Position numbers and translations under genes: made by a program. A stretch of DNA of 64,000 nucleotides from Streptomyces nigrescens (GTDB taxonomy: Bacteria > Actinomycetota > Actinomycetes > Streptomycetales > Streptomycetaceae), in the NCBI GenBank assembly GCA_024349765.1, contig AP026073.1, positions 1,426,001 to 1,490,000 of the forward strand. The letters are read 5' to 3'. The notes beneath the pieces are model-generated. The model saw only the letters and a program-made list of their open reading frames with translations, was not told where the DNA came from and made no database searches. Below, piece after piece: positions 1-43,669 of the stretch; position 1 is the stretch's first letter; each line of letters begins with the position of its first letter.

Positions 1-153
1 ATCCTGGTGACCTACGCCTACCGGCTCTCCTTCGCCGACAGCCCGCGCAACTTCTCCGAGTCCGCGGCCTGGGGCGTCCTGATCCTGCTCATGCTCTCCG
101 TCGTCGCGGTCGTCTACCGCCGGGCGCTGCGCAAGCAGGGAGAGGTGTGGTGA
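1..153 (+). CDS. malF: Sugar ABC transporter permease, MalF-type (3' end only)
   Basis: Only the last 50 codons are in the window; the 5' part lies upstream. The visible peptide has a final hydrophobic helix (about residues 24-40 of the fragment, AWGVLILLMLSVVAVVYR) followed by a basic cytoplasmic tail ending GEVW, the usual end of a MalF-type inner-membrane permease. Its TGA overlaps the GTG start of the next permease, so the two are translationally coupled. It would form the membrane channel of a maltose/maltodextrin importer together with MalG. The assignment rests mainly on context, because the diagnostic EAA loop is outside the window. Confidence 0.8.
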   Translation: MLVTYAYRLSFADSPRNFSESAAWGVLILLMLSVVAVVYRRALRKQGEVW

Positions 154-1040
154 CCACCGCAATGACCCGCAAGCGAGACGAGCGCACTCGGCCGGCCTCC
201 GTCGGGGCCCGGAAGCGCAACCAGCGATCCCGCCCGGCCTCGATCGGCCTGCACACGGGCCTGCTCATCGCCGCCGTGGTGGCGGTCTTCCCGCCCCTCT
301 GGCTGCTGGTGACGTCCTTCAAACCCAAGAACGACGCCTTCTCCACCAGCCTCGTCACCCACTTCACCCTCGCCAACTACACCCATGTGCTGGCCGACAC
401 CGAGTTCCTGACCTGGTTCAAGAACTCCGTGGTGATCGTCGGGCTGACCACCGTCCTCGGCGTCTTCATCGCCGCCACCACCGGCTACGCCGTCAGCCGC
501 TTCCGCTTCCCCGGCATGCGCCCGCTGATGTGGCTGCTGCTGATCACCCAGATGTTCCCGGTCGCGGTGCTCATCGTGCCGCTCTACAACCTCATGGCGA
601 CCCTGGGCCTGCTGAACCAGCCCGCGGGCCTGGTCATCACCTACCTGACCATCGCCGTCCCGTTCTGCGCCTGGATGATGAAGGGCTACTTCGACACCAT
701 CCCGGTGGAGATCGACGAATCCGGCCGGGTCGACGGCCTCAACCCGTTCGGCACCTTCTGGCGGCTCGTCCTGCCGCTGGCCCGCCCCGGCCTCGCCGTC
801 ACCGGCTTCTACACCTTCGTCACCGCCTGGGCCGAGGTCGCCTACGCCTCCGCCTTCATGACCGGTGAGGAGAACCTCACCCTCGCCGGCGGGCTGCAGA
901 CCTTCGTCAACCAGTACACCAACGACTGGGGTTCGATGACCGCCGCCGCCGTGATCATCGCCGTGCCGGCCGCCCTCGTCTTCGCCTTCGCCCAACGCCA
1001 CCTCGTCGCCGGCCTCACGGCCGGCACCACCAAGGGTTGA
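147..1040 (+). CDS. malG: Maltose/maltodextrin ABC transporter permease MalG
   Basis: A 297-aa inner-membrane permease of the CUT1 sugar ABC family, partner of MalF. About six hydrophobic helices are visible, starting at residues 36-57. The cytoplasmic loop at residues 188-210 (EIDESGRVDG...LVLPLARPG) is the EAA-type loop that docks on the ATPase. The N-terminal tail carries a short imperfect duplication (RPASVG and RPASIG). The GTG start at 147 overlaps the upstream stop; a second GTG follows at 150. The protein ends TTKG, and the TGA at 1038-1040 appears to lie inside the right end of the inserted TnpB element. An alpha-glucosidase downstream supports maltodextrin as substrate. Confidence 0.9.
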   Translation: MVTTAMTRKRDERTRPASVGARKRNQRSRPASIGLHTGLLIAAVVAVFPPLWLLVTSFKPKNDAFSTSLVTHFTLANYTHVLADTEFLTWFKNSVVIVGLTTVLGVFIAATTGYAVSRFRFPGMRPLMWLLLITQMFPVAVLIVPLYNLMATLGLLNQPAGLVITYLTIAVPFCAWMMKGYFDTIPVEIDESGRVDGLNPFGTFWRLVLPLARPGLAVTGFYTFVTAWAEVAYASAFMTGEENLTLAGGLQTFVNQYTNDWGSMTAAAVIIAVPAALVFAFAQRHLVAGLTAGTTKG

Positions 1041-2259
1041 CCTCTTCCCCGCTCCGAGGAGCGGGGATTCCTTCCCTCGCGGGTCGGATTTTCTGCTTCG
1101 CTGACCGCTGCCTCTCAGGAGTGTTCCGTTGAGGTCTCACACCGTCTCCACAGACTGTCACCGCCAGCCCGGCGGCCAGAATGTTCTTCGCCGCGTTCAC
1201 GTCCCGGTCGTGGGTCGCTCCGCAAGCGCACGTCCAGGTACGGACGTTGAGCGGCAGCCTCGCCGCGATGGTGCCGCACGCCGAACACAGTTGGGAGCTG
1301 GGAAACCATCGGTCGATGACGATCAGCTCGCGCCCGTACCAGGCGCACTTGTATTCCAGCATGCTGCGCAGCTCGGCCCACGACGCATCGGAGACGGCGC
1401 GGGCGAGCTTGCGGTTCTTGACCATGTTGCGGACAGCCAGGTCCTCGATCACGAACGTTTGGTTTTCGCGCACGAGTCGACTGGTCAGCTTCTGAAGGAA
1501 GTCCCGGCGCCGGTCGCCGATGCGGGCATGCACCCTGGCCACCTTGCGTCGGGCTTTCTGCCGGTTTCTGCTTCCCTCGGCCTTGCGGGAAAGCGCCCGC
1601 TGCGCCCGGGCCAGGCGGGGGCGGTCACCGCGTTCGTGGCGGGGGTTGGCGACCTTCTCCCCGGTGGACAGGGCCACCAGGCTCGTGATCCCGACGTCGA
1701 TGCCGACCGCGTCCGCGGCGGCGGGCATCGTGGCCGGTGTGTCCTCGCACAGAAGGGACACGAACCAGCGCCCGGCAGCGTCCCGGGAGACGGTCACCGT
1801 CGTCGGCTCCGCCCCTTCGGGCAGGGCGCGGGACCACACGATGTCCAGTGGGTCCGTCATCTTCGCCAAGGTCAGCTCCCCGTTCCGGTAGCGAAACGCG
1901 GACCGGGTGTACTCCGCACTGGCGCGGGACCTCTTACGCGACTTGAAGCGGGGGTACCGAGTCCGCTTGCCCCAGAACGACACGAACGCGGCCTGCAGGT
2001 GACGGAGCGACTGCTGCAAGGGAACGGAAGAGACCTCGGACAGGTAGGCGAGCTCCTCGGACTTCTTCCACTCCGTCAGCATCGACGAGGTCTGCGCATA
2101 GTTCACACGCTCCTGCCGCGACCACGCTTTCGTTCGTGCAGCCAACGCCAGGTTGTAGACCTTCCGCACACAGCCGAATGTGCGCGACAGCTCAGCCGCC
2201 TGCACCTCACTCGGATAGAAGCGGTACTTGAACGCCCGCTTCACAGGGGAAGTCGCCAT
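1015..2259 (-). CDS. tnpB: TnpB RNA-guided endonuclease (OrfB, IS605 family)
   Basis: A 414-aa full-length TnpB. An N-terminal basic segment (KRAFKYRFYPSEVQ, residues 7-20) precedes a RuvC-like nuclease with all catalytic parts: D188 in GIDVG, E272 in IEDLAVRNM and D351 in THDRDVNAAKNI. A zinc ribbon uses C325, C328, C344 and C346. TnpB proteins are the ancestors of Cas12 and cut DNA guided by an RNA made from the element's right end. The last residues (NPWWCRP) are read from antisense malG DNA beyond the element boundary, so the stop codon belongs to the host sequence. The gene overlaps malG by 26 bp. It looks intact and potentially active. Confidence 0.92.
   Translation of the reverse strand: MATSPVKRAFKYRFYPSEVQAAELSRTFGCVRKVYNLALAARTKAWSRQERVNYAQTSSMLTEWKKSEELAYLSEVSSVPLQQSLRHLQAAFVSFWGKRTRYPRFKSRKRSRASAEYTRSAFRYRNGELTLAKMTDPLDIVWSRALPEGAEPTTVTVSRDAAGRWFVSLLCEDTPATMPAAADAVGIDVGITSLVALSTGEKVANPRHERGDRPRLARAQRALSRKAEGSRNRQKARRKVARVHARIGDRRRDFLQKLTSRLVRENQTFVIEDLAVRNMVKNRKLARAVSDASWAELRSMLEYKCAWYGRELIVIDRWFPSSQLCSACGTIAARLPLNVRTWTCACGATHDRDVNAAKNILAAGLAVTVCGDGVRPQRNTPERQRSAKQKIRPAREGIPAPRSGEEVNPWWCRP
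1047..1066 (-). repeat. Right-end hairpin of the TnpB element (likely omega-RNA 3' region)
   Basis: CCCCGCTCC and GGAGCGGGG form a 9-bp inverted repeat with a 2-nt centre (in practice an 8-bp stem with a CGAG loop), about 10 bp inside the TCAA boundary. This type of GC hairpin marks the right end of IS605 elements, where it serves transposase recognition. It also forms the 3' scaffold of the guide RNA, whose guide would continue into the flanking malG DNA. Confidence 0.75.
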
Positions 2260-2260
2260 G

Positions 2261-2290
2261 GCTCACACGCTAATGACGCCACATGTGAGC
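2261..2290 (-). repeat. Inverted repeat directly upstream of tnpB
   Basis: GCTCACA (2261-2267) and TGTGAGC (2284-2290) form a perfect 7-bp inverted repeat with a 16-nt loop, one base upstream of the tnpB ATG. It could be the left-end hairpin of the element, or an operator or RNA fold limiting tnpB translation. No clear Shine-Dalgarno sequence precedes tnpB. Confidence 0.5.
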
Positions 2291-2405
2291 GGCCAAGCAC
2301 TGGCCAGAACCCAGGCCCACTCGGGCCCGCCACTATGCGACGCCGGAATGCGGGCGGCCCCTTTCCCAGGCTTGAAGGCCAGTTTTTCCACGCAAGGAGT
2401 TATGG

Positions 2406-3989
2406 ATGACCCAGCACCACCCCACCCGTGCCACCGACTGGTGGCGGGACGCGGTGATCTACCAGGTCTACCCGCGCAGTTTCGCCGACGGCAACGGTGA
2501 CGGTATGGGCGATCTGGCGGGTGTCCGCGGTCGGCTGCCGTACCTGCGGGACCTGGGCGTGGACGCCGTCTGGCTCAGCCCGTTCTACGCCTCGCCGCAG
2601 GCCGACGCCGGGTACGACGTCGCCGACTACCGGGCCATCGACCCGATGTTCGGCACCCTGGCCGACGCCGAGGCGGTCATTCGCGACGCCCACGAGCTGG
2701 GCCTGCGCATCATCGTCGACATCGTTCCCAACCACTGCTCCGACCAGCACGTGTGGTTCCGCCGCGCGCTGGCCGAGGGCCCCGGTTCCACCACCCGGGA
2801 ACGCTTCCACTTCCGCAAGGGCCGCGGCGAGAACGGTGAACTCCCGCCCAACGACTGGGAGTCCCTCTTCGGCGGGCCGGCCTGGACCCGGGTCCCCGAC
2901 GGCGAGTGGTACCTCCACCTCTTCGCCCCCGAACAGCCCGACTTCAACTGGGAGCACCCCGCCGTCCAGGACGAGTTCCGCTCCATCCTGCGCTTCTGGC
3001 TGGACCTGGGCGTGGACGGCTTCCGGGTCGATGTCGCCCACGGACTGGTCAAGGCCCCGGGCCTGCCCGACATGGGCCACGCCGAGCAGCTCACCCTCCT
3101 CGGCAACCAGGCCCTGCCCTTCTTCGACCAGGACGGGGTGCACGCCGTCTACCGCTCGTGGCGCACCGTCCTCGACGAGTACCCGGGCGAGCGGATCGCG
3201 GTCGCCGAGGCGTGGACGCCCACCGCCGAACGCACCGCGCTCTACCTCCGCCCCGACGAGCTCCACCAGGCGTTCAACTTCCATTACCTGAACACCGGTT
3301 GGGACGCGGACGCGTTGCGGGAGGCGATCGACTCCTCCCTGGACGCGATGCGGCCGGTCGGCGCGCCCACGACCTGGGTGCTGTCCAACCACGACGTGGT
3401 GCGGCACCGCACCCGGCTCGGCGGCGGCCCGGCCCGGGCCCGCGCCGCCAGCCTGCTGATGCTGGCCCTGCCCGGCTCCGCGTACGTCTACCAGGGCGAG
3501 GAGCTGGGCCTGCCGGAGGTCACCGACCTGCCCGACGAGGTCCGCCAGGACCCGTCCTTCTTCCGCAACAGCGGCCAGGACGGCCTGCGCGACGGCTGCC
3601 GGGTGCCGCTGCCGTGGAGCGGCGAGGTGGCGCCGTACGGCTTCGGGACCGGTGGCAGCTGGCTGCCGCAGCCCGCCGACTGGGCCCCGCTCACCGTCGA
3701 GGCGCAGACCGGCGATCCGTCCTCGACCCTGGAGCTCTACCGCACCGCGCTCTCCCTGCGGCGCAGCCACCCCGGTCTCGGCGCCGGGGAGGCCGTCGAG
3801 TGGCTCGACGCACCCGCCGGCGTCCTGGCCTTCCGCCGCCCCGGCGGCCTGGTCTGCACGGCCAACACCACCCCGGAGGCGGTCTCGATCCCCGTCCCCG
3901 GCCGGGTCCTGCTCGCGTCGGGCCCGCTGGACGCCGCCGGGCCGGACGTCGAACTGCCCGCCGACACCACCGTCTGGTGGGCGGAGTGA
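2406..3989 (+). CDS. aglA: GH13 alpha-glucosidase (oligo-1,6/alpha-1,4-glucosidase type)
   Basis: A 527-aa cytoplasmic glycoside hydrolase family 13 enzyme without signal peptide. The conserved regions are present: DIVPNH (residues 105-110), the nucleophile D209 in GFRVDVAH, the acid/base E268 in AVAEAW, and D330 in LSNHDVVRH. It would release glucose from maltodextrins brought in by the MalFG importer. The ATG at 2406 follows AAGGAG (2394-2399). An ATG at 2402 is in another frame. Its stop overlaps the GTG of the LacI regulator. The TnpB insertion probably uncouples it from malG, so it may need its own promoter. The symbol follows the usual Streptomyces malEFG-aglA order. Confidence 0.88.
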
Positions 3990-5044
3990 CCCTGTCCGGT
4001 CCACCGCACCACCCGCCCCGGCTCTCCGACGTCGCGGCGCAGGCGCAGGTCAGCGAGGCGACCGTGAGCCGGGTCCTGAACGGCCGGGCGGGCGTGGCGG
4101 CGGGCACCCGGCAGCGGGTGCTCGCCGCGCTGGACGTCCTCGGCCACGAGCGGCCGGTCCGCTTACGGCGCCGCAGCGCGGGCCTGGTCGGGCTGGTCAT
4201 CCCCGAGCTGACCAACCCGATCTTCCCGGCCTTCGCGCAGATCATCGAGCAGGCGCTGGCCGGCCACGGCTACACCCCGGTCCTGTGCACCCAGATGCCG
4301 GGCGGGGCCACCGAGGACGAACTCGTCGAGCAGTTGGAGGAGCGCGGTGTCACCGGCATCGTCTTCCTCTCCGGTCTGCACGCCGACACCCGCGCGGATC
4401 CGTCGCGTTACGCCCGCCTGACCGCCCGCGGTGTGCCGTACGTCCTGATCAACGGCTACCACCCGGGGATCGACGCGCCGTTCGTCTCGCCCGACGACGG
4501 TGCGGCGGCCCGGATGGCGGTGCGCCATCTCGCCGAGCTGGGGCACGAACGGATCGGCCTGGCGGTCGGTCCGGTCCGTTACGTCCCGTCCCGCCGCAAG
4601 GCCGAGGGTTTCGTGGCGGCGCTGGGCGAGTCGTTCGGCCTGTCGAGGGGGCAGGCCGAACGACTCGTCCAGCACACGCTGTTCAGCGTCGAGGGCGGTG
4701 ACGCGGCGGCCGCCGCCCTGCTCGACCAGGGCTGCACCGGCATCGTCTGCGGCAGCGACCTGATGGCGCTGGGGGCCGTCCGCGCGGCGCGCCGGCGGGG
4801 TCTGGGCGTGCCCGGCGACCTCTCCGTCGTCGGCTTCGACGACTCCCAGCTGATCGCCTTCACCGACCCGCCGCTGACCACCATCCGGCAGCCGGTGCAC
4901 GCGATGGCGACCGCCGCGGTGGGTGCCCTCATCGAGGAGATCCACGACCGGGACCGCGGCGAGCGGGACCCGGTCCGCCGCACCGAGTTCGTCTTCCAGC
5001 CGGAACTGGTCGTACGGGGGTCGACGGGGCCGGCGCCGGGGTGA
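3986..5044 (+). CDS. LacI-family transcriptional regulator with a TTA codon
   Basis: A 352-aa repressor of the LacI/GalR family. A helix-turn-helix covers residues 12-33 ([20 protein letters not shown]), followed by a hinge and a sugar-binding periplasmic-binding-protein-like domain (from about residue 66, [18 protein letters not shown]). The GTG start overlaps the glucosidase stop. Codon 60, in the hinge, is TTA (4163-4165), which in Streptomyces requires the bldA tRNA and so ties production to development. The likely targets are the mal genes and the pullulanase, whose promoter carries LacI-type palindromes. It resembles MalR/Reg1 in role, but that regulator normally lies upstream of malE, so I give no symbol. 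Confidence 0.85.
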
Positions 5045-5062
5045 CGTCCGGCGGTCAGGCCG

Positions 5063-5314
5063 TCAGGCCTCCTGGGCGGCGTACGACACGAACGCCGCCC
5101 AGGCGAGGGCCGGAACGCTGAGCTGGGGGCCGTCCTTGTCCTTGGAGTCGCGGATGTGGACGGTGGTGGGGCAGGCGGCGATTTCTATGCAGTCGCCGGA
5201 GCTGTCGCCGCTGTAGCTGGACTTGTGCCAGGAGAGGGCGATCTCTACGCAGTCGTCGCCGTCGCCACTGCTGTAGCTGCTTTTGAACCAGGCCAGTTCG
5301 GGGGTGCTGCTCAT
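5063..5314 (-). CDS. DUF397 protein with internal duplication
   Basis: An 83-aa small protein. The DUF397 signature occurs twice: WFKSSYSSGDGDDCVEIA (residues 9-26) and WHKSSYSGDSSGDCIEIA (about 29-46), followed by the usual VHIRDSKD and a WAAFV-type tail. DUF397 proteins are short regulators encoded beside XRE/DUF5753 regulators in actinomycetes (WhiJ/AbaA-type loci) and are thought to act with them. The start overlaps the XRE gene by 4 bp, so they form an operon. The internal tandem copy of the core motif is unusual. Confidence 0.88.
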   Translation of the reverse strand: MSSTPELAWFKSSYSSGDGDDCVEIALSWHKSSYSGDSSGDCIEIAACPTTVHIRDSKDKDGPQLSVPALAWAAFVSYAAQEA

Positions 5315-6153
5315 AGCGCTCCTCGCATCTGCTCCAGCAGGCCCCGCGAGTCTTTGGGGGTCAGAGCCTGCGAAAGCAGTTTTGCATAACGCATTTGGAG
5401 GATGCTGACCTCATTCGGGTCGGAGATGAACAGTCCGGCGCGCTGGCCCTCGCAGTAGCCGAATCGCTCGTTGTCCGGGGTCTCCAGCAGCCGCATCGGT
5501 CCGTGCAGGCCAGCGTGCTTCTCCCGCACAACTGGCATGAGCTGGATGTCTACGTTCCGGATCTCGGAGAGTTCGAGGACGTTGTCGATGAGTTGCCTGG
5601 TGATCTCCACCCCACCCGTGCGGCGCAGGAACAGATGCTCTTCGAGGATGAAGCTGAACGCGGTGTTGGGACGCTCCCGCAGCAGCCGCTGCCGCTCGGA
5701 CCGTGCCGCCCAGCGAGCCTCGATCTGCTCTTCGTCCAGGTACGGAACCTGCTCCGTGAACAACGTCCGCGCATACCCCTCCGTCTGTAACAGCCCCGGC
5801 ACCAGCCGGCATTCGTACGTGTAGAGACTGATCGCCTGCTTCTCCAGCTCCGCCCACTCGCGGAACCAGCGGGCCAACCCCGGCTGCTTCGAGAGCCGTT
5901 TGGCCGCCTTCCGTAGCACGCCGTTCGCGTTCAGCGTCTCTTCCGAGCGGTCGATGAACTTCTTCGACGGGAGGCGCCGGCCCTGTTCGACGGAGCCGAT
6001 GTAGTGCGCCGAGTACCGGATCGCCGGCGCCAGGGCCTCCTGCGTGAATCCCGCGTTCTCACGGAACCCTTGATAAACGGCGCCGAAGGTCCGCAGACTG
6101 CCGGACGGCTCGGGCTTGGCGCTGTCGTAGGTGTCGGTGCTGCCGTCTTCCAT
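5311..6153 (-). CDS. XRE-family regulator with DUF5753 domain (WhiJ-like)
   Basis: A 280-aa protein. An N-terminal helix-turn-helix (about residues 25-80, FGAVYQGFRENAGFTQEALAPAIRYSAHYIGSVEQGRR) is followed by a DUF5753 domain (YECRLVPGLLQTEGYARTLF, then WAARSERQRLLRE and FILEEHLFLRRTGG). Such regulators pair with DUF397 proteins and a HATPase in Streptomyces developmental control. Codon 122 is TTA (5788-5790 on the plus strand), so translation should depend on bldA. The divergent ATPase gene starts about 150 bp away. Confidence 0.9.
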   Translation of the reverse strand: MEDGSTDTYDSAKPEPSGSLRTFGAVYQGFRENAGFTQEALAPAIRYSAHYIGSVEQGRRLPSKKFIDRSEETLNANGVLRKAAKRLSKQPGLARWFREWAELEKQAISLYTYECRLVPGLLQTEGYARTLFTEQVPYLDEEQIEARWAARSERQRLLRERPNTAFSFILEEHLFLRRTGGVEITRQLIDNVLELSEIRNVDIQLMPVVREKHAGLHGPMRLLETPDNERFGYCEGQRAGLFISDPNEVSILQMRYAKLLSQALTPKDSRGLLEQMRGAL

Positions 6154-6304
6154 CCCGGGTACTCCCGCTCACTGGTACTGACCCCGCAAGTCACCCATAG
6201 TGACGAGCTGTTACCCGACCCGTCCACGTACTCCACTCGTACACTTTCCGAAGTACGAGCTGAGTCCCTGGTGTACGAACCCGCTGACCAGCAGCGTTGG
6301 CGCC

Positions 6305-6757
6305 ATGTCAGCCCAACCCACCGTCGCCGTACGTATGTTCACCCAGCGCTTCAGTGCCACCCGCCGTGGGGCCCGCCTCGCCCGGTACCTCGCCGTCCAG
6401 CAGCTCGACGTCTGGGGCTTCCCCTACGGGGGCGAGGTCTCCGGCTCCGTCGCGCTGATCGTCGGGGAACTCGCCGCCAACGCCGTGACCCACGGCCGCG
6501 TGCCCGGCCGGGACTTCGAACTGCGCCTGCTGAAACTGCCCGGATCGGCCCGGCCGGGCACCCTCCGCATCGAGGTCGCCGACACCCGTACGGAGTGCCG
6601 CCCGCCGGCCCCCGGCGCCCTCGTGCCGCCGGCGCACGATTCCGAGACCGGCTGGGGACTGGTCCTCGTCACCGCGCTCGCCACCTGCTGGACCGTCCTC
6701 GACCGGCCCGCGGTCGGCAAGATCGTCCGGGCGGATCTGGACCTGCCGGGCAGGTGA
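6305..6757 (+). CDS. ATP-binding protein, anti-sigma-factor-like HATPase
   Basis: A 150-aa GHKL ATPase of the RsbW/SpoIIAB type. It has the N-box-like GELAANAVTHG, the G1-like motif RIEVADTR, and GWGLVLVTALATCW near the end. It is divergent from the XRE-DUF397 pair and completes the three-gene set typical of WhiJ/AbaA loci. The ATG at 6305 starts at MSAQPTVAV and gives a normal-length domain. An upstream in-frame ATG at 6200 would add 35 poorly conserved-looking residues and run into the divergent promoter. Confidence 0.85.
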   Translation: MSAQPTVAVRMFTQRFSATRRGARLARYLAVQQLDVWGFPYGGEVSGSVALIVGELAANAVTHGRVPGRDFELRLLKLPGSARPGTLRIEVADTRTECRPPAPGALVPPAHDSETGWGLVLVTALATCWTVLDRPAVGKIVRADLDLPGR

Positions 6758-6796
6758 GGAGGCCCGCAGGGGGCGAGCGGGGCAGCTCGGGCGGCC

Positions 6797-7663
6797 TCAG
6801 ACGGCGGGGCGCCGGGCGTGGAAGAGGCCCCAGCGCAGCAGGCCCCGGCGGGTGACGTCGGTCCACAGGGGGAGGTTGGCCAGCAGGTCGTCGACGTAGG
6901 CCGGGCTGATGCGGTCCCGCAGTTCGGCCGCGCGCCGGTGGACGTCCTCGTCGAGGCGGGCGTAGTGGGTGGCGAGGTCCGCGGTGCGGTCCTCGAAGTC
7001 GGCGCCCTTGAGGCCGAGTTCGGACAGCTGCCGCAGGTAGAAGTCCGGTGTCGCCGGGGTCTGCACGCCGAGCCGCGCGAACGCGGGCCGTACCGCCTCG
7101 GCTGGCGGCTCCTCGGGCGCCATGATGTCCGAGAAGACCAGGGCGCCGCCCGGTCTCAGCACGCGTACCGCCTCGCTCAAGGCGCCTTCCCGGTCCTCGA
7201 CGTGGCAGAGGACCTCAAGGGACCAGACGACGTCGAACCGCCCGGTTTCGTAGGGCAGGTCGTTGAGGGAGCCGGTGACGACCTCGATCAGGCCGTCCAG
7301 GCCGCGCCGGGCGTTGGTCGCGCGGTGGCGCCGGTTGTGTGACTCGCTGAGGTCGAGGGCCACGACCCGGCAGCCGAAGCGTTCGGCGAGCGCGCGAGCC
7401 GATCCGCCGTATCCGGAGCCGAGGTCGAGCACGGTGGCGTGCGGGCCGAGCAGGTCGGCGACCTTGTCCGCGGCGTGCTCGACGGTACGGTGCGAGGCCT
7501 CCGCGATCGGCTCGTCGCCCTCGGCGTAGATGCCGACGTGGATGTCCTCACCGCCCCAGACGGCGTCGTAGAAGGCGTCGACATCGCCGGTCTCGTAGTA
7601 GCGGCGGGTCGCGTCGTCGTGGTCCGGTGCGGCGGTGGGGTCGTTGTCAGGTGTGTCGATCAC
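6797..7663 (-). CDS. SAM-dependent methyltransferase, sarcosine/dimethylglycine type
   Basis: A 288-aa class I methyltransferase. Motif I is VLDLGSGYGG (about residues 78-87), motif II is VVALDLSESH, and motif post-I/III is VWSLEVLCHVEDREGAL followed by LRPGGALVFSDI. The N-terminal signature YYETGDVDAFYDAVWGGEDI (residues 22-41) resembles sarcosine/dimethylglycine N-methyltransferases that make glycine betaine, so a role in osmolyte synthesis is possible. No glycine methyltransferase partner is adjacent. The start is taken as GTG 7663; no strong Shine-Dalgarno sequence is visible. It is convergent with the ATPase gene. Confidence 0.75.
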   Translation of the reverse strand: MIDTPDNDPTAAPDHDDATRRYYETGDVDAFYDAVWGGEDIHVGIYAEGDEPIAEASHRTVEHAADKVADLLGPHATVLDLGSGYGGSARALAERFGCRVVALDLSESHNRRHRATNARRGLDGLIEVVTGSLNDLPYETGRFDVVWSLEVLCHVEDREGALSEAVRVLRPGGALVFSDIMAPEEPPAEAVRPAFARLGVQTPATPDFYLRQLSELGLKGADFEDRTADLATHYARLDEDVHRRAAELRDRISPAYVDDLLANLPLWTDVTRRGLLRWGLFHARRPAV

Positions 7664-7857
7664 GGGGGGTGGGTTCCCCGCTCGGGCTCGGGCAACTCGG
7701 GCCGTTCGGGGACATGGGTGACTATGCGCCACTTCATGGGGCCGTGCGGGGTGCGGACGGGGAGCCGATGGGGCCGGTCCGACCGGCCGGGCGCGTAGGG
7801 CCCGTTGTGGTGGACCTCCGGCCGGCCGGACCGGCTGTTCCAGCAACGTAACACCCT

Positions 7858-39993: not shown

Positions 39994-40860
39994 TTACTTC
40001 AACAACCGCGACAACCGCCGGTCGGCGAGGGGCTTGCCCCCGGTCTGGCAGGTGGGGCAGTACTGCAACGACGAGTCGCTGAACGACACCTCCCGGACGG
40101 TGTCCCCGCAGACCGGACAGGGCTGCCCCGTCCGCCCGTGCACCCGCATCCCCGTCCGCTTCTCCGCCTTGAGGTCCTCCGGCGCCAGCCCCCGGGCCCG
40201 CGCGACCGCCTCGCCCAGCGTCGTCCCGACCGCCGCGTACAGCCGCGCCACCTCCTCCTCGGACAGCGCCGCGGCGAGCTTGAACGGCGACATCCGCGCC
40301 GCGTGCAGGATCTCGTCCGAATAGGCGTTGCCGATCCCGGCCAGCACGCCCTGGTCCCGCAACACGCCCTTGATCTGCCGCCGTTCGCCCGCGAGCAGCC
40401 CGGCGAAGGCCGCCGCCGTGAAGCCGTCACCCAGCGGATCGCGTCCGAGCCGCGCGATCCCGGGCACCTCCTGCGGATCCCGCACGACGTACAGCGCGAG
40501 GTGCTTCTGACTGCCGGCCTCCGTCACGTCGAACCCCGACCCCTCGGGCTCCCGGAGCCGCACCCGCAGCGCCAACGGCCCCTTCCCCGGCCGCGGCGGG
40601 GCCGCCGGCAGCCGCTCGCTCCACCGCATCCACCCCGCCCGCCCCAGATGCAGCACGAGGAACAGCTCCCCGACCCGGAGCGCGAGGAACTTGCCGTACC
40701 GGGCCACGCCCTGGAAATCCTGCCCCTCCACCGCACCCAGCGGCGGGTCGTAGGTCTTCAACGCGGCCACCGACACCAGCTGCGCCCGGCCCACCGCCCG
40801 CCCCGCCAGCCGCTCCTCCAGGAACCCCCGCAGCGCCTCGACCTCCGGCAATTCAGGCAT
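39994..40860 (-). CDS. Fpg/Nei-family DNA glycosylase/AP lyase
   Basis: A 288-aa base-excision repair enzyme. The N-terminus MPELPEVEALRGFL supplies the catalytic Pro2 and Glu3 after Met removal. ARYGKFLALRV contains the conserved lysine. GIGNAYSDEILHAARMSP is the helix-two-turn-helix. The C-terminal zinc finger is CPVCGDTVREVSFSDSSLQY followed by CPTC. It would remove oxidised bases. Start 40860 is fixed by MPELPE. Several Fpg/Nei paralogues exist in Streptomyces, so I give no symbol. Confidence 0.92.
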   Translation of the reverse strand: MPELPEVEALRGFLEERLAGRAVGRAQLVSVAALKTYDPPLGAVEGQDFQGVARYGKFLALRVGELFLVLHLGRAGWMRWSERLPAAPPRPGKGPLALRVRLREPEGSGFDVTEAGSQKHLALYVVRDPQEVPGIARLGRDPLGDGFTAAAFAGLLAGERRQIKGVLRDQGVLAGIGNAYSDEILHAARMSPFKLAAALSEEEVARLYAAVGTTLGEAVARARGLAPEDLKAEKRTGMRVHGRTGQPCPVCGDTVREVSFSDSSLQYCPTCQTGGKPLADRRLSRLLK

Positions 40861-40928
40861 ATCCCCAGTCTGCCCCGGGGCCGGGCCCCCGGCCACACGG
40901 CCCCGTGCCCGGGAAGGGAGGAGGAAAT

Positions 40929-43598
40929 GTGGAATCCCGTACCGGCGTGCGCACCGTGGATTACCTTGCCCCCGTGGACCAGTTGATCTCATCGGACCCG
41001 ACGCACATAGGCCCGTACCGCCTGATCGCCCGCCTGGGCGCCGGCGGTATGGGCCTGGTGTATCTGGGCCGTTCCGAGGCCGGGCGGACCGTCGCGGTCA
41101 AGGTCGTCCAGGACGAGCACGCACAGCACCCGGAGTTCCGCAGGCGCTTCGCCCGCGAGGTGGCGGCGGCCCGGCGGGTGGGCGGCGCCTGGACGGCGGA
41201 CGTGCTCGACGCCGACACCGAGGCCGCGGTGCCCTGGGTGGCGACCCAGTACATCCCGGGGCCCGACCTGACCACCGTGGTGGCGGACGACTACGGGCCG
41301 CTGCCCGAGAACTCCGTCAGGGTGCTGGCCAACCGCCTCGCCCTCGCCCTGCAGGCGGTGCACGAGGCGGGCCTGATCCACCGGGACCTCAAGCCGTCCA
41401 ACGTGCTGGTGACGGTGGACGGGCCGCGCGTGATCGACTTCGGTATCGCGCGGGCCATGGACACCCTCGCCGGGGACAGCCTGCACACCCGCACCGGCAT
41501 GCTGATCGGATCCCCCGGCTTCATGTCGCCCGAGCAGGTCCGCGGCCTCGAACTCACCCCCGCCAGCGACGTGTTCTGCCTGGGCGCCGTCCTCGTCTAC
41601 GCCGCCACCGGACGCCTGCTCTTCGGCGCCACGGAGACCGGGCTGAACGCCCACCTCTTCCGGATCGCCGAGGAGGAGCCGGACCTGACCGGCGTACCGG
41701 AGCCGCTGCTCGACCTCGTACGCGAGTGCCTCGACAAGGACCCGGCCAAGCGGCCCGCCCTCCAGCAGGTCGCGGCCCGCGCGGAGCCGGACGCGGACGG
41801 GGAGTGGCTGCCGGGCGCGGTGCTGGCCCAACTCGGCCGCCATGCGGCCCGGTTGCTGGACTACGCCCCGGAGACGGTCATGGGCACACCCGGCGCCGCG
41901 CCCGCGGACCCGCACCCTCCGGCCGGCCCGCCGCAGCCGTCGGTACCCCCGGTGCCCGCGTACTCGCCCACGGCCCCGGCACAGCTCGTCCCCCCGCAGG
42001 GCTTCGGACCGCCCCCGGGCCCGGCCCCGTACGCCGGGCCCCCGCCGGACCTCCGGGATTCCGCGCCACCGCACCCCAGACGCTGGTGGGGCCTGGCGGT
42101 GGTCGCCCTGGTGCAGCTGTTCGTGCTGCTCGACGCGACGTCCCTGCACATGGCGGTGCCGTCCGTCATGGCCGCTCTGCACCTGCCCGCCGACAGCCTG
42201 AACCTCCTGTTCACCGGCTACGACCTGGCCTTCGCCGGGCTGCTGCTGCTCGGCGGGCACCTCGCGGACCTGGTCGGCCGCAAACGGCTGCTGCTCATCG
42301 GGCTGGCCGGCTACGCGGCGGCCGCCGCGTTCGGCGGGCTGGCCCCCACGGCCGGCGTGCTGGTCTGCGCCCGCGTCCTCCAGGGTGCCTTCGCCGCACT
42401 GCTGTCGCCGGCCGTACTGGCCCTGGTGGCGGCCAACTTCCCCGACCCGAAGGCACGGGGCAGGGCCTTCGGGGTCTACGCCACGATCGTCGCCGGCGGC
42501 TCGACCATGGGTCTGTTCACCGGCCGATGGCTGATCGACACCCTGGACTGGCGCTGGTGCCTGTTCGCCGACGTCCCCCTCGCCCTGATCGCCGTGATCG
42601 GTGCGGCCACCCTGGTGCACGACCGCCCGCTCCGCACCCGTCGCCGCCTCGACGCGCCGGGCCTGCTGCTCGGCTCCGGCGGCTTGCTCTGCCTCGTCTA
42701 CGGCTTCCAGCAAACCGGCCCGCGCGGCTGGACCGACCTCCTGGTGCTGGCCCTGCTCGCGGTCGGCGCCGTCCTGCTCCTGGCCTTCTTCCTGTGGCAG
42801 AGCAGGACGCCCGACGCCCTCCTGCCGCCGTACGCCACCCAGGATCGGGGCCGCCTCGGCTCCTTCCTCACCCTGTTCCTGACCGGCGCGGGGACGCTCG
42901 CCCTCTTCCCGACCCTGATGACGTACCTGGAGAACGTCCGCGGCTACTCCCCGATCGCCACCACCACGGCGCTCCTCCCCACGGTGGCCGCGATCCTCAT
43001 CGGCGCCACCCAGGTCTCCGCCCGCCTGCTGCACCGCGTACCGGCGCGCAACCTGATCGCGCCGGGCCTCCTGCTCACCGCGTGCGGCCTGCTCCTCCTG
43101 ACCCGCCTGGAGCCCGACAGCGACTACACCGCCGTGGTCCTGCCCGGCATGATCCTCGCCGGCTTCGGCCTCGGCATGGCCCTGATGCCGCTCTACTCCC
43201 TCGCCACGGCCGGCATCGCCGCCCAGGACTCCGGCGGCGGCGCGGCAGTGACCGGCACGACCGACGAGGCGGGCGCGGCGCTCGGCACGGCGGTCTTCAG
43301 CAGCGTCCTCACCGCGGGCATCGCGGCCCGGATGGCCGCCGCCCCCGGGCTCCCGCCGTCCCTCGCCGCCGCGGCCCGCAGCGGCCACGTCATCAGCCCG
43401 CAAGCGGCCCCGCCACAACTGGCGGAGACGATCACCACGGCCACGGTGGCCGGCTACACCGACGCCCTGTGGTGGTCCGCCGGCCTCACCCTCCTCGCCG
43501 CCCTGGCCACCACCCTCCTGATCCGACCGACCACCTCAACGCCCCCAGGCCTCCCGGGCCCACCCCTCCCGCTGCACGACCCGGGGAGCGCCCACTGA
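40929..43598 (+). CDS. Ser/Thr protein kinase fused to an MFS drug-type transporter
   Basis: An 889-aa single reading frame joining two full domains. Residues 28-285 are a Hanks-type kinase: glycine loop LGAGGMGLVYLG, K58 in VAVKVV, HRDLKPSNVL with D153, DFGIAR with D170, and SPGFMSPEQ. Residues about 319-383 are a Pro-rich linker. From about 386 to 880 there is an EmrB/QacA-type (DHA2) transporter with LDATSLHMAVPSVMAALHLP, motif A GGHLADLVGRKR and some 13-14 hydrophobic helices. GTG 40929 has GGGAGGAGG upstream; GTG 40956 and 40974 are alternatives. The kinase would face the cytoplasm and could phosphorylate the transporter or respond to transport. No stop or frameshift separates the halves. 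Confidence 0.93.
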   Translation: MESRTGVRTVDYLAPVDQLISSDPTHIGPYRLIARLGAGGMGLVYLGRSEAGRTVAVKVVQDEHAQHPEFRRRFAREVAAARRVGGAWTADVLDADTEAAVPWVATQYIPGPDLTTVVADDYGPLPENSVRVLANRLALALQAVHEAGLIHRDLKPSNVLVTVDGPRVIDFGIARAMDTLAGDSLHTRTGMLIGSPGFMSPEQVRGLELTPASDVFCLGAVLVYAATGRLLFGATETGLNAHLFRIAEEEPDLTGVPEPLLDLVRECLDKDPAKRPALQQVAARAEPDADGEWLPGAVLAQLGRHAARLLDYAPETVMGTPGAAPADPHPPAGPPQPSVPPVPAYSPTAPAQLVPPQGFGPPPGPAPYAGPPPDLRDSAPPHPRRWWGLAVVALVQLFVLLDATSLHMAVPSVMAALHLPADSLNLLFTGYDLAFAGLLLLGGHLADLVGRKRLLLIGLAGYAAAAAFGGLAPTAGVLVCARVLQGAFAALLSPAVLALVAANFPDPKARGRAFGVYATIVAGGSTMGLFTGRWLIDTLDWRWCLFADVPLALIAVIGAATLVHDRPLRTRRRLDAPGLLLGSGGLLCLVYGFQQTGPRGWTDLLVLALLAVGAVLLLAFFLWQSRTPDALLPPYATQDRGRLGSFLTLFLTGAGTLALFPTLMTYLENVRGYSPIATTTALLPTVAAILIGATQVSARLLHRVPARNLIAPGLLLTACGLLLLTRLEPDSDYTAVVLPGMILAGFGLGMALMPLYSLATAGIAAQDSGGGAAVTGTTDEAGAALGTAVFSSVLTAGIAARMAAAPGLPPSLAAAARSGHVISPQAAPPQLAETITTATVAGYTDALWWSAGLTLLAALATTLLIRPTTSTPPGLPGPPLPLHDPGSAH

Positions 43599-43616
43599 CC
43601 CTGCCCCACGCACACG

Positions 43617-43650
43617 AAAGGGCCGCCACCCGCGGGGGTGGCGGCCCTTT
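43617..43650. terminator. Bidirectional terminator between kinase-MFS gene and glnA
   Basis: AAAGGGCCGCCACCC (43617-43631) pairs with GGGTGGCGGCCCTTT (43636-43650) around a 4-nt loop, followed by T on the plus strand. A 15-bp stem between convergent genes. Confidence 0.92.
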
Positions 43651-43669
43651 TGGCAGATCTTGGGGGATC

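Follow-up and report, generated by a model that had tools for sequence, protein, structure and literature searches.

A kinase and an MFS fold in one reading frame

In this work we have examined a gene of Streptomyces nigrescens which lies at positions 40929..43598 on the plus strand of the window, that is, of the whole stretch of 64,000 nucleotides that was analysed. According to its open reading frame and Pfam matches, it encodes a protein of 889 aa in which a Ser/Thr kinase is fused to an MFS transporter fold. The stop-free frame 40905-43598 encloses the gene, and its GTG start at 40929 is preceded by a ribosome-binding site, GGGAGGAGG (40916..40924, plus strand). The lysine K58, the HRD, DFG and SPEQ motifs and the Pro-rich linker, which had all been predicted for this single frame, were found in it. 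The kinase domain covers residues 30-282 (41016..41774, plus strand; Pfam Pkinase, E 7.3e-38), with K58 at 41100, HRD (residues 151-153) at 41379, DFG (170-172) at 41436 and SPEQ (200-203) at 41526, all on the same strand. The catalytic residues are intact in all 41 aligned members of the family, and by its motifs (Lys, HRD, DFG, SPE) the domain is a Hanks-type Ser/Thr kinase. Both threonines of the activation-loop sequence T187-R-T189 (41487..41495, plus strand) are present in 41/41 members, and by analogy with PknB they are likely to be autophosphorylation sites. The protein scored 167.6 bits against the PASTA kinase model NF033483 (cut-off 450) and the Pfam scan found no PASTA domain in it; the AfsK model NF053615, which was among the best NCBIfam matches, reached 280.6 bits against a cut-off of 1300.

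The kinase is followed by the Pro-rich linker (residues 312-383; 41862..42077, plus strand), whose sequence varies among relatives. Within it lies Y345-S-P-T348 (41961..41972, plus strand), and the motif Y-x-P-T recurs in 39 of the 41 otherwise variable linkers (it is absent from L011 and L077), whereas in 500 shuffles it turned up in 1.1 linkers on average and in 4 at most. We infer that the motif is a candidate site for phosphorylation or for docking. The C-terminal part, residues 384-868 (42078..43532, plus strand), matches Pfam MFS_1 at residues 393-787 (E 1.1e-40). A first structure model built with 6 sequences had a mean pLDDT of 39.5; a second AlphaFold model, built with 40 sequences, reached a mean pLDDT of 75.6 and a pTM of 0.60 and contains all 14 helices of an MFS domain in the window protein. 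The best PDB match of this part is EfpA (8ufd), with a TM-score of 0.88 by target length. Against the NCBIfam DHA2 model TIGR00711 (efflux_EmrB) it scored 194 bits, below the cut-off of 230.2.

The upstream gene is divergent, on the minus strand; its frame runs over 39994-40992 with a likely start near 40860, and from the beginning of the protein, MPELPEVE, we take it to be Fpg/Nei-like. The downstream neighbour on the opposite strand, which from its sequence is presumably glnA, is convergent with the fusion gene, as originally predicted. The terminator that was expected between them is a less simple matter: a hairpin with a 17-bp stem, a z-score of -4.88 and A- and U-rich ends lies between the two 3' ends (43615..43652), but a simple terminator scan listed none there. 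Among six named Streptomyces records glnA was found within 5 kb only in L009, so that its adjacency is incidental and a partnership with glnA was ruled out. The window and L009 have the whole neighbourhood in common, from carnitine acyltransferase to DUF4191, and L012 has its upstream part only; L010, L011 and L014 have other neighbours in common, and L013 has yet others. As no neighbour is common to all the named loci, no partner is suggested.

Spread, origin and shortened forms of the fusion

A scan of named genomes gave these six Streptomyces records, whose best segments are 67-95% identical, and also a single match that was short and weak. The fused frame is open in five of the six, and in S. 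endophytica (L012) it is broken in the MFS half. At that locus (2130-7678) the nearby carnitine acyltransferase is frame-split as well, which suggests that assembly errors lie behind both splits. A DNA search over 392 Streptomyces genomes at E <= 1e-150 matched 63, and the frames were read at all 63: 40 genomes have an intact kinase-MFS frame (its MFS part is shortened in three, G104, G237 and G298), four have a broken frame (G085, G252, G285, G403), one has a fragment, nine have a kinase without MFS and nine a free-standing MFS. The fragment, in L160 (G106; 417-1691), has a kinase without a start and its frame stops soon past TM1. A second copy in G237 (L052) has a stop within the kinase. The other 329 genomes gave no match at this threshold, which would miss diverged copies.

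Had the two halves always been separate genes in relatives, this would have told against the fusion, but they are not. Could the frame nevertheless be an artefact, two adjacent genes joined by an assembly or sequencing error? Beyond the general possibility and the broken frames of some relatives nothing favours this; the intact fusion in 40/392 genomes and in five of the six named records, in independent assemblies and with differing gene neighbourhoods, and a third-position GC of 0.85-0.98 in each 180-nt segment of the frame, make it hardly credible. This GC pattern is of the coding type and runs through the linker, so nothing suggests a frameshift near 41885-42080, and chance or a local sequencing error was ruled out as the source of the conserved fusion.

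In a wider sample, consisting of the window's own genome, two others of the genus and 28 genomes from 16 other genera, 29 best-match loci were read. A kinase frame was present at 23 of them, two being loci from the genus; in the DNA examined there, at most one TM followed the kinase, nine of these frames running off the locus, and no fusion was found outside the genus in this limited sample at the DNA level. One locus of another genus, L043 (G018; 2-3568), has a kinase frame adjoining a separate MFS-like frame of 272 aa on the same strand. A plasmid tblastn search gave no place covering 80% of the query (34 records, of which H1 alone was read).

For the comparisons below we used a set of 41 proteins. 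It omits L046, whose frame length and scores match those of L009 and which was taken as the same genome, the broken or fragmentary copies (L012, L052, L060, L063, L068, L092, L160), and L156-L159 and L164, which were read for frame only. L136 enters nothing but the two trees, alignment A2 does not include L065, and L104 and L105 repeat L002 and L003. In a tree with 14 other kinases, the kinase halves of 42 fused proteins cluster together (support 99/96), and the MFS halves do so in a tree with 21 free-standing MFS proteins (100/100). Because each half forms a single group, the trees indicate one ancestral fusion event, and repeated fusion or swapping of modules from outside was ruled out; both bootstraps were unsettled and several branches are long. 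Many small clades are common to both trees, among them the window protein with L009, L059/L062, L064/L075/L079, L076/L078/L091, L082/L093 and L077/L094/L136. The long-branched L072, L074, L080 and L084, among others, are placed differently in the kinase and MFS trees.

The last of these clades (support 98/90 for the kinase, 100/100 for the MFS) consists of proteins whose MFS ends in helix 9 while the kinase is intact, and no further C-terminal MFS piece was found in the downstream DNA examined. A plasmid copy from Streptomyces sp. NBC_00212 (NZ_CP108116.1, L155:8052-9740, WP_331721238.1) is shorter still, with 563 aa comprising the kinase and helices 1-6, and no C-terminal MFS remnant lies nearby. 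This protein is annotated simply as 'MFS transporter', which hides its kinase. Since transport by MFS proteins requires both six-helix domains, shortened members such as these are, judged by their sequences, unlikely to pump on their own, though they might conceivably do so as dimers.

What stands in the place of the MFS when a kinase of this kind has none? In the nearest sibling kinases (the second gene of L082, L083, L085, L086 and two in L087) after the kinase come a linker, a single TM and an extracellular stretch some 250 residues long. This bears out the original prediction that the transporter stands where a sensor would be expected. Pfam recognised only kinase-type families in the siblings, the extracellular parts of L083, L085, L086 and L082 4210-6288 being unmatched. 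The two architectures also occur side by side: L082 (G312; 1578-7425) has a tandem of kinase-MFS, kinase-1TM-sensor and kinase-1TM genes, and in L157 (G233; 1167-5201) a kinase-1TM frame directly adjoins the fusion.

Divergence of the MFS half from free-standing transporters

The MFS half is altered at positions that free-standing relatives keep. Its TM1 signature (residues 401-411; 42129..42161, plus strand) reads LDATSLHMAVP in the window protein, so that in comparison with LDxTIVNxALP the Asp is kept and IVN is changed, whereas 17 close free-standing MFS proteins have LDATIVNIALP with few changes. The TM1 Asp is kept in 17 of the 39 full-length fused copies, in 17/17 close and in 22/25 distant free-standing MFS proteins; when two truncated copies are included, the fused set has it in 19/41, Asn407 in 11/41 and R482 in 31/41. 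N548 and G658 are each kept in one of the 39. Twelve free-standing relatives have 142 invariant columns, 22 of which are retained by at least 95% of the 39 fused copies, and 52 by less than 60% of them. The median retention at 48 MFS-wide positions was 1.00 for the 17 close relatives, 0.90 for 25 distant ones from the window's genome and 0.81 for the 39 fused copies (nominal p 1.6e-5, the rows being related to one another). The window's own copy also retains 0.81, which is inside the range of the distant free-standing proteins (minimum 0.75), and it keeps the TM1 Asp (D402), R482 and motif A; for these reasons this particular copy may, from its residues, still be a transporter. The proline of motif C is absent from the window protein and likewise from 17/17 close free-standing relatives, and it was therefore ruled out as a sign of lost transport.

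We also compared the selective constraint on the two halves, using GY94 with F3x4 codon frequencies on 33 pairs of our choice out of 820 (21 within one clade and 12 other close pairs). The kinase had a median omega of 0.057, and the MFS one of 0.21 on its cytoplasmic and 0.31 on its outer side, as against 0.084 (71 pairs) and 0.080 (55 pairs) for the two sides in 14 close free-standing MFS proteins, of 91 possible pairs, those with a distance outside 0.05-2 having been left out. Among closer pairs the values were 0.21 and 0.36 in the fused and 0.055 and 0.068 in the free-standing proteins. The constraint on the MFS half is thus weaker than that on its free relatives by a factor of 2.5-4, and by a factor of 4-5 among closer pairs. 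In six pairs of sibling kinases, the kinase domain gave an omega of 0.06-0.09 and the extracellular domain one of 0.18-0.28; as these latter values are similar to its own, the MFS half, by this measure of its sequence, evolves like the sensor domain of the siblings. The method of Nei-Gojobori gave a higher omega for the MFS than for the kinase in 820/820 pairs, with MFS values near 1 that are probably inflated by GC-biased codons. We do not claim neutral or positive selection on the MFS, since GY94 with codon frequencies gave 0.2-0.3, and with omega below 1 diversifying selection is not demonstrated for this half.

The relaxation is not even across the membrane. With helix limits read from the AlphaFold model of mean pLDDT 75.6 and the N terminus placed inside, column identity among 39 fused copies was 0.559 in the cytoplasmic and 0.387 in the outer helix halves, and 13 of the 14 helices were more conserved in their cytoplasmic half (Wilcoxon p 0.00024). 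Sub-sets of 8 and 15 proteins pointed in the same direction. No such asymmetry was found in 12 close (0.665, 0.674; p 1.0) or 25 distant (0.290, 0.324; p 0.39) free-standing MFS proteins. Of the 17 close relatives, 12 entered the analyses of column conservation, asymmetry and hydropathy and 14 the GY94 comparison, near copies or distant ones being omitted. On the inner side, D447 (40/41), G450 and R510 (both 41/41) are among the residues that are well kept.

These results bear on two of the original claims. The half had been called a complete DHA2-type transporter; its 14 helices are borne out by the model, but completeness as a transporter sits poorly with the family-wide loss of the signature, the relaxed constraint and the shortened forms. 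It had also been proposed that substrate flux gates the kinase or that the kinase gates export. With an eroded signature, a relaxed constraint and some copies lacking much of the MFS, a working flux cannot be general in the family, and neither proposal is supported as it was worded.

A possible receptor kinase and its relation to known systems

We consider it probable that these proteins are receptor-type Ser/Thr kinases whose sensor is a former drug transporter. From the sequences, the MFS fold has most likely taken the place of the helix-plus-sensor of the siblings and works as a receptor domain or a regulatory one. This reading is supported by the intact kinase residues, the eroded transport signature, the inside/outside asymmetry, the shortened members and the 1TM siblings. 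In such a protein the N-terminal kinase would sit in the cytoplasm, joined by a flexible linker with the conserved Y-x-P-T motif to the C-terminal MFS fold, which would replace the single helix and extracellular domain of the siblings. A signal that comes from outside or arises within the membrane (a ligand, lipid, drug or membrane state) would alter the MFS fold, the conserved cytoplasmic face would relay the change, and the kinase would probably autophosphorylate T187/T189 and then phosphorylate its targets. The sensing, the direction of the signal, the targets and the phosphorylation are all matters that we infer. More tentatively, perhaps we see here a drug pump turning into a receptor, in which kinase and inner face are preserved and the outer face differs between species so as to read different external molecules, and in which the folds that some lineages have cut to 6-9 helices still serve as receptors. 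The four genomes with broken frames and the one fragment count against a receptor, and because of them decay of the fusion gene is possible as an alternative.

Is it possible that the protein is instead a working exporter regulated in cis, a pump which the kinase switches open or shut by phosphorylating the linker or the loops on the cytoplasmic side? D402, R482, motif A and 14 predicted helices are found in the window protein, the linker has a conserved Thr and the cytoplasmic side is better conserved, all of which would suit such a pump, and it is possible for the copies with the key residues, the window's included. For the family we think it unlikely, as the TM1 Asp is lost in 22 of 39 full-length copies, a shortened MFS occurs alongside an intact kinase, and the constrained half is the kinase and not the MFS. 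Even less convincing to us is a passive anchor, that is, an MFS which after the fusion merely tethers the kinase to the membrane and decays, sensing nothing. It would explain the relaxed constraint, the lost signature residues, the shortened forms and the occasional broken frames, but not the asymmetry: the cytoplasmic halves are conserved in 13 of 14 helices with omega well below 1. Moreover, most copies keep 14 helices where one would anchor, and the mean hydropathy of their TM cores (1.58) equals that of free-standing relatives (1.56).

The activators of most bacterial Ser/Thr kinases are an outstanding question, as is generally known and as PMC6069109 states, and here a kinase is joined to a membrane fold of known structure in 40/392 genomes of a genus. 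The naturally shortened versions amount to a ready-made deletion series, and the family would allow a test of how a receptor arises from a transporter. Such a fusion can be hidden by its annotation, as in the copy recorded as 'MFS transporter'.

Each half resembles well-known proteins. The window protein shares a kinase domain with PknB and AfsK and differs from them in having no PASTA or PQQ domain, with both model scores far below the cut-offs; it shares the 14-helix fold with EfpA and free-standing DHA2 exporters, which are its best PDB matches, whereas these are free-standing and the close free-standing relatives of the fusion keep the TM1 signature. UhpC, which we take to be an MFS protein with the histidine kinase UhpB as its partner, offers a functional likeness, in that a transporter protein activates a kinase upon ligand binding. 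PMC7096432 describes UhpC as a transporter-type sensor that activates its kinase in this way and still transports, and the differences are that the two are separate proteins, that the kinase is a histidine kinase and that UhpC retains transport.

The nearest characterised analogue among the accessible sources is the transceptor CbrA, in which an SLC5 transporter is fused to a histidine kinase for nutrient signalling (PMC7096432; see also PMC13022988), so that a transporter fold and a kinase share one polypeptide. Its transporter family and kinase type are other ones, and CbrA transports, whereas the signature of the Streptomyces fusion is eroded. The SLC5 domain transports histidine, and the expression of target genes did not change significantly when it was removed (PMC7096432); that CbrA signals without this domain warns against taking it for granted that the MFS is the sensor. 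Joining of kinases to other modules has been described, and in the accessible part of PMC1262709 a MalT-like domain and solute-binding domains are named as such partners; the terms MFS, facilitator and permease do not occur in that part, nor does MFS in the corresponding part of PMC6213207. We recognised no study of a kinase-MFS fusion in the open-access literature searched. Lastly, Table 7 of PMC3924187 lists the Sensor Kinase-MFS Fusion (SK-MFS) family, TCDB 2.A.1.34, with one member, from Streptomyces coelicolor, and an unknown substrate. It is alike in having a kinase and an MFS in one protein in the same genus, and is known by name; the table gives no more than this name and the count. 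A kinase-MFS fusion is thus a kind already named in TCDB, and the Streptomyces family described here is a variant of it.
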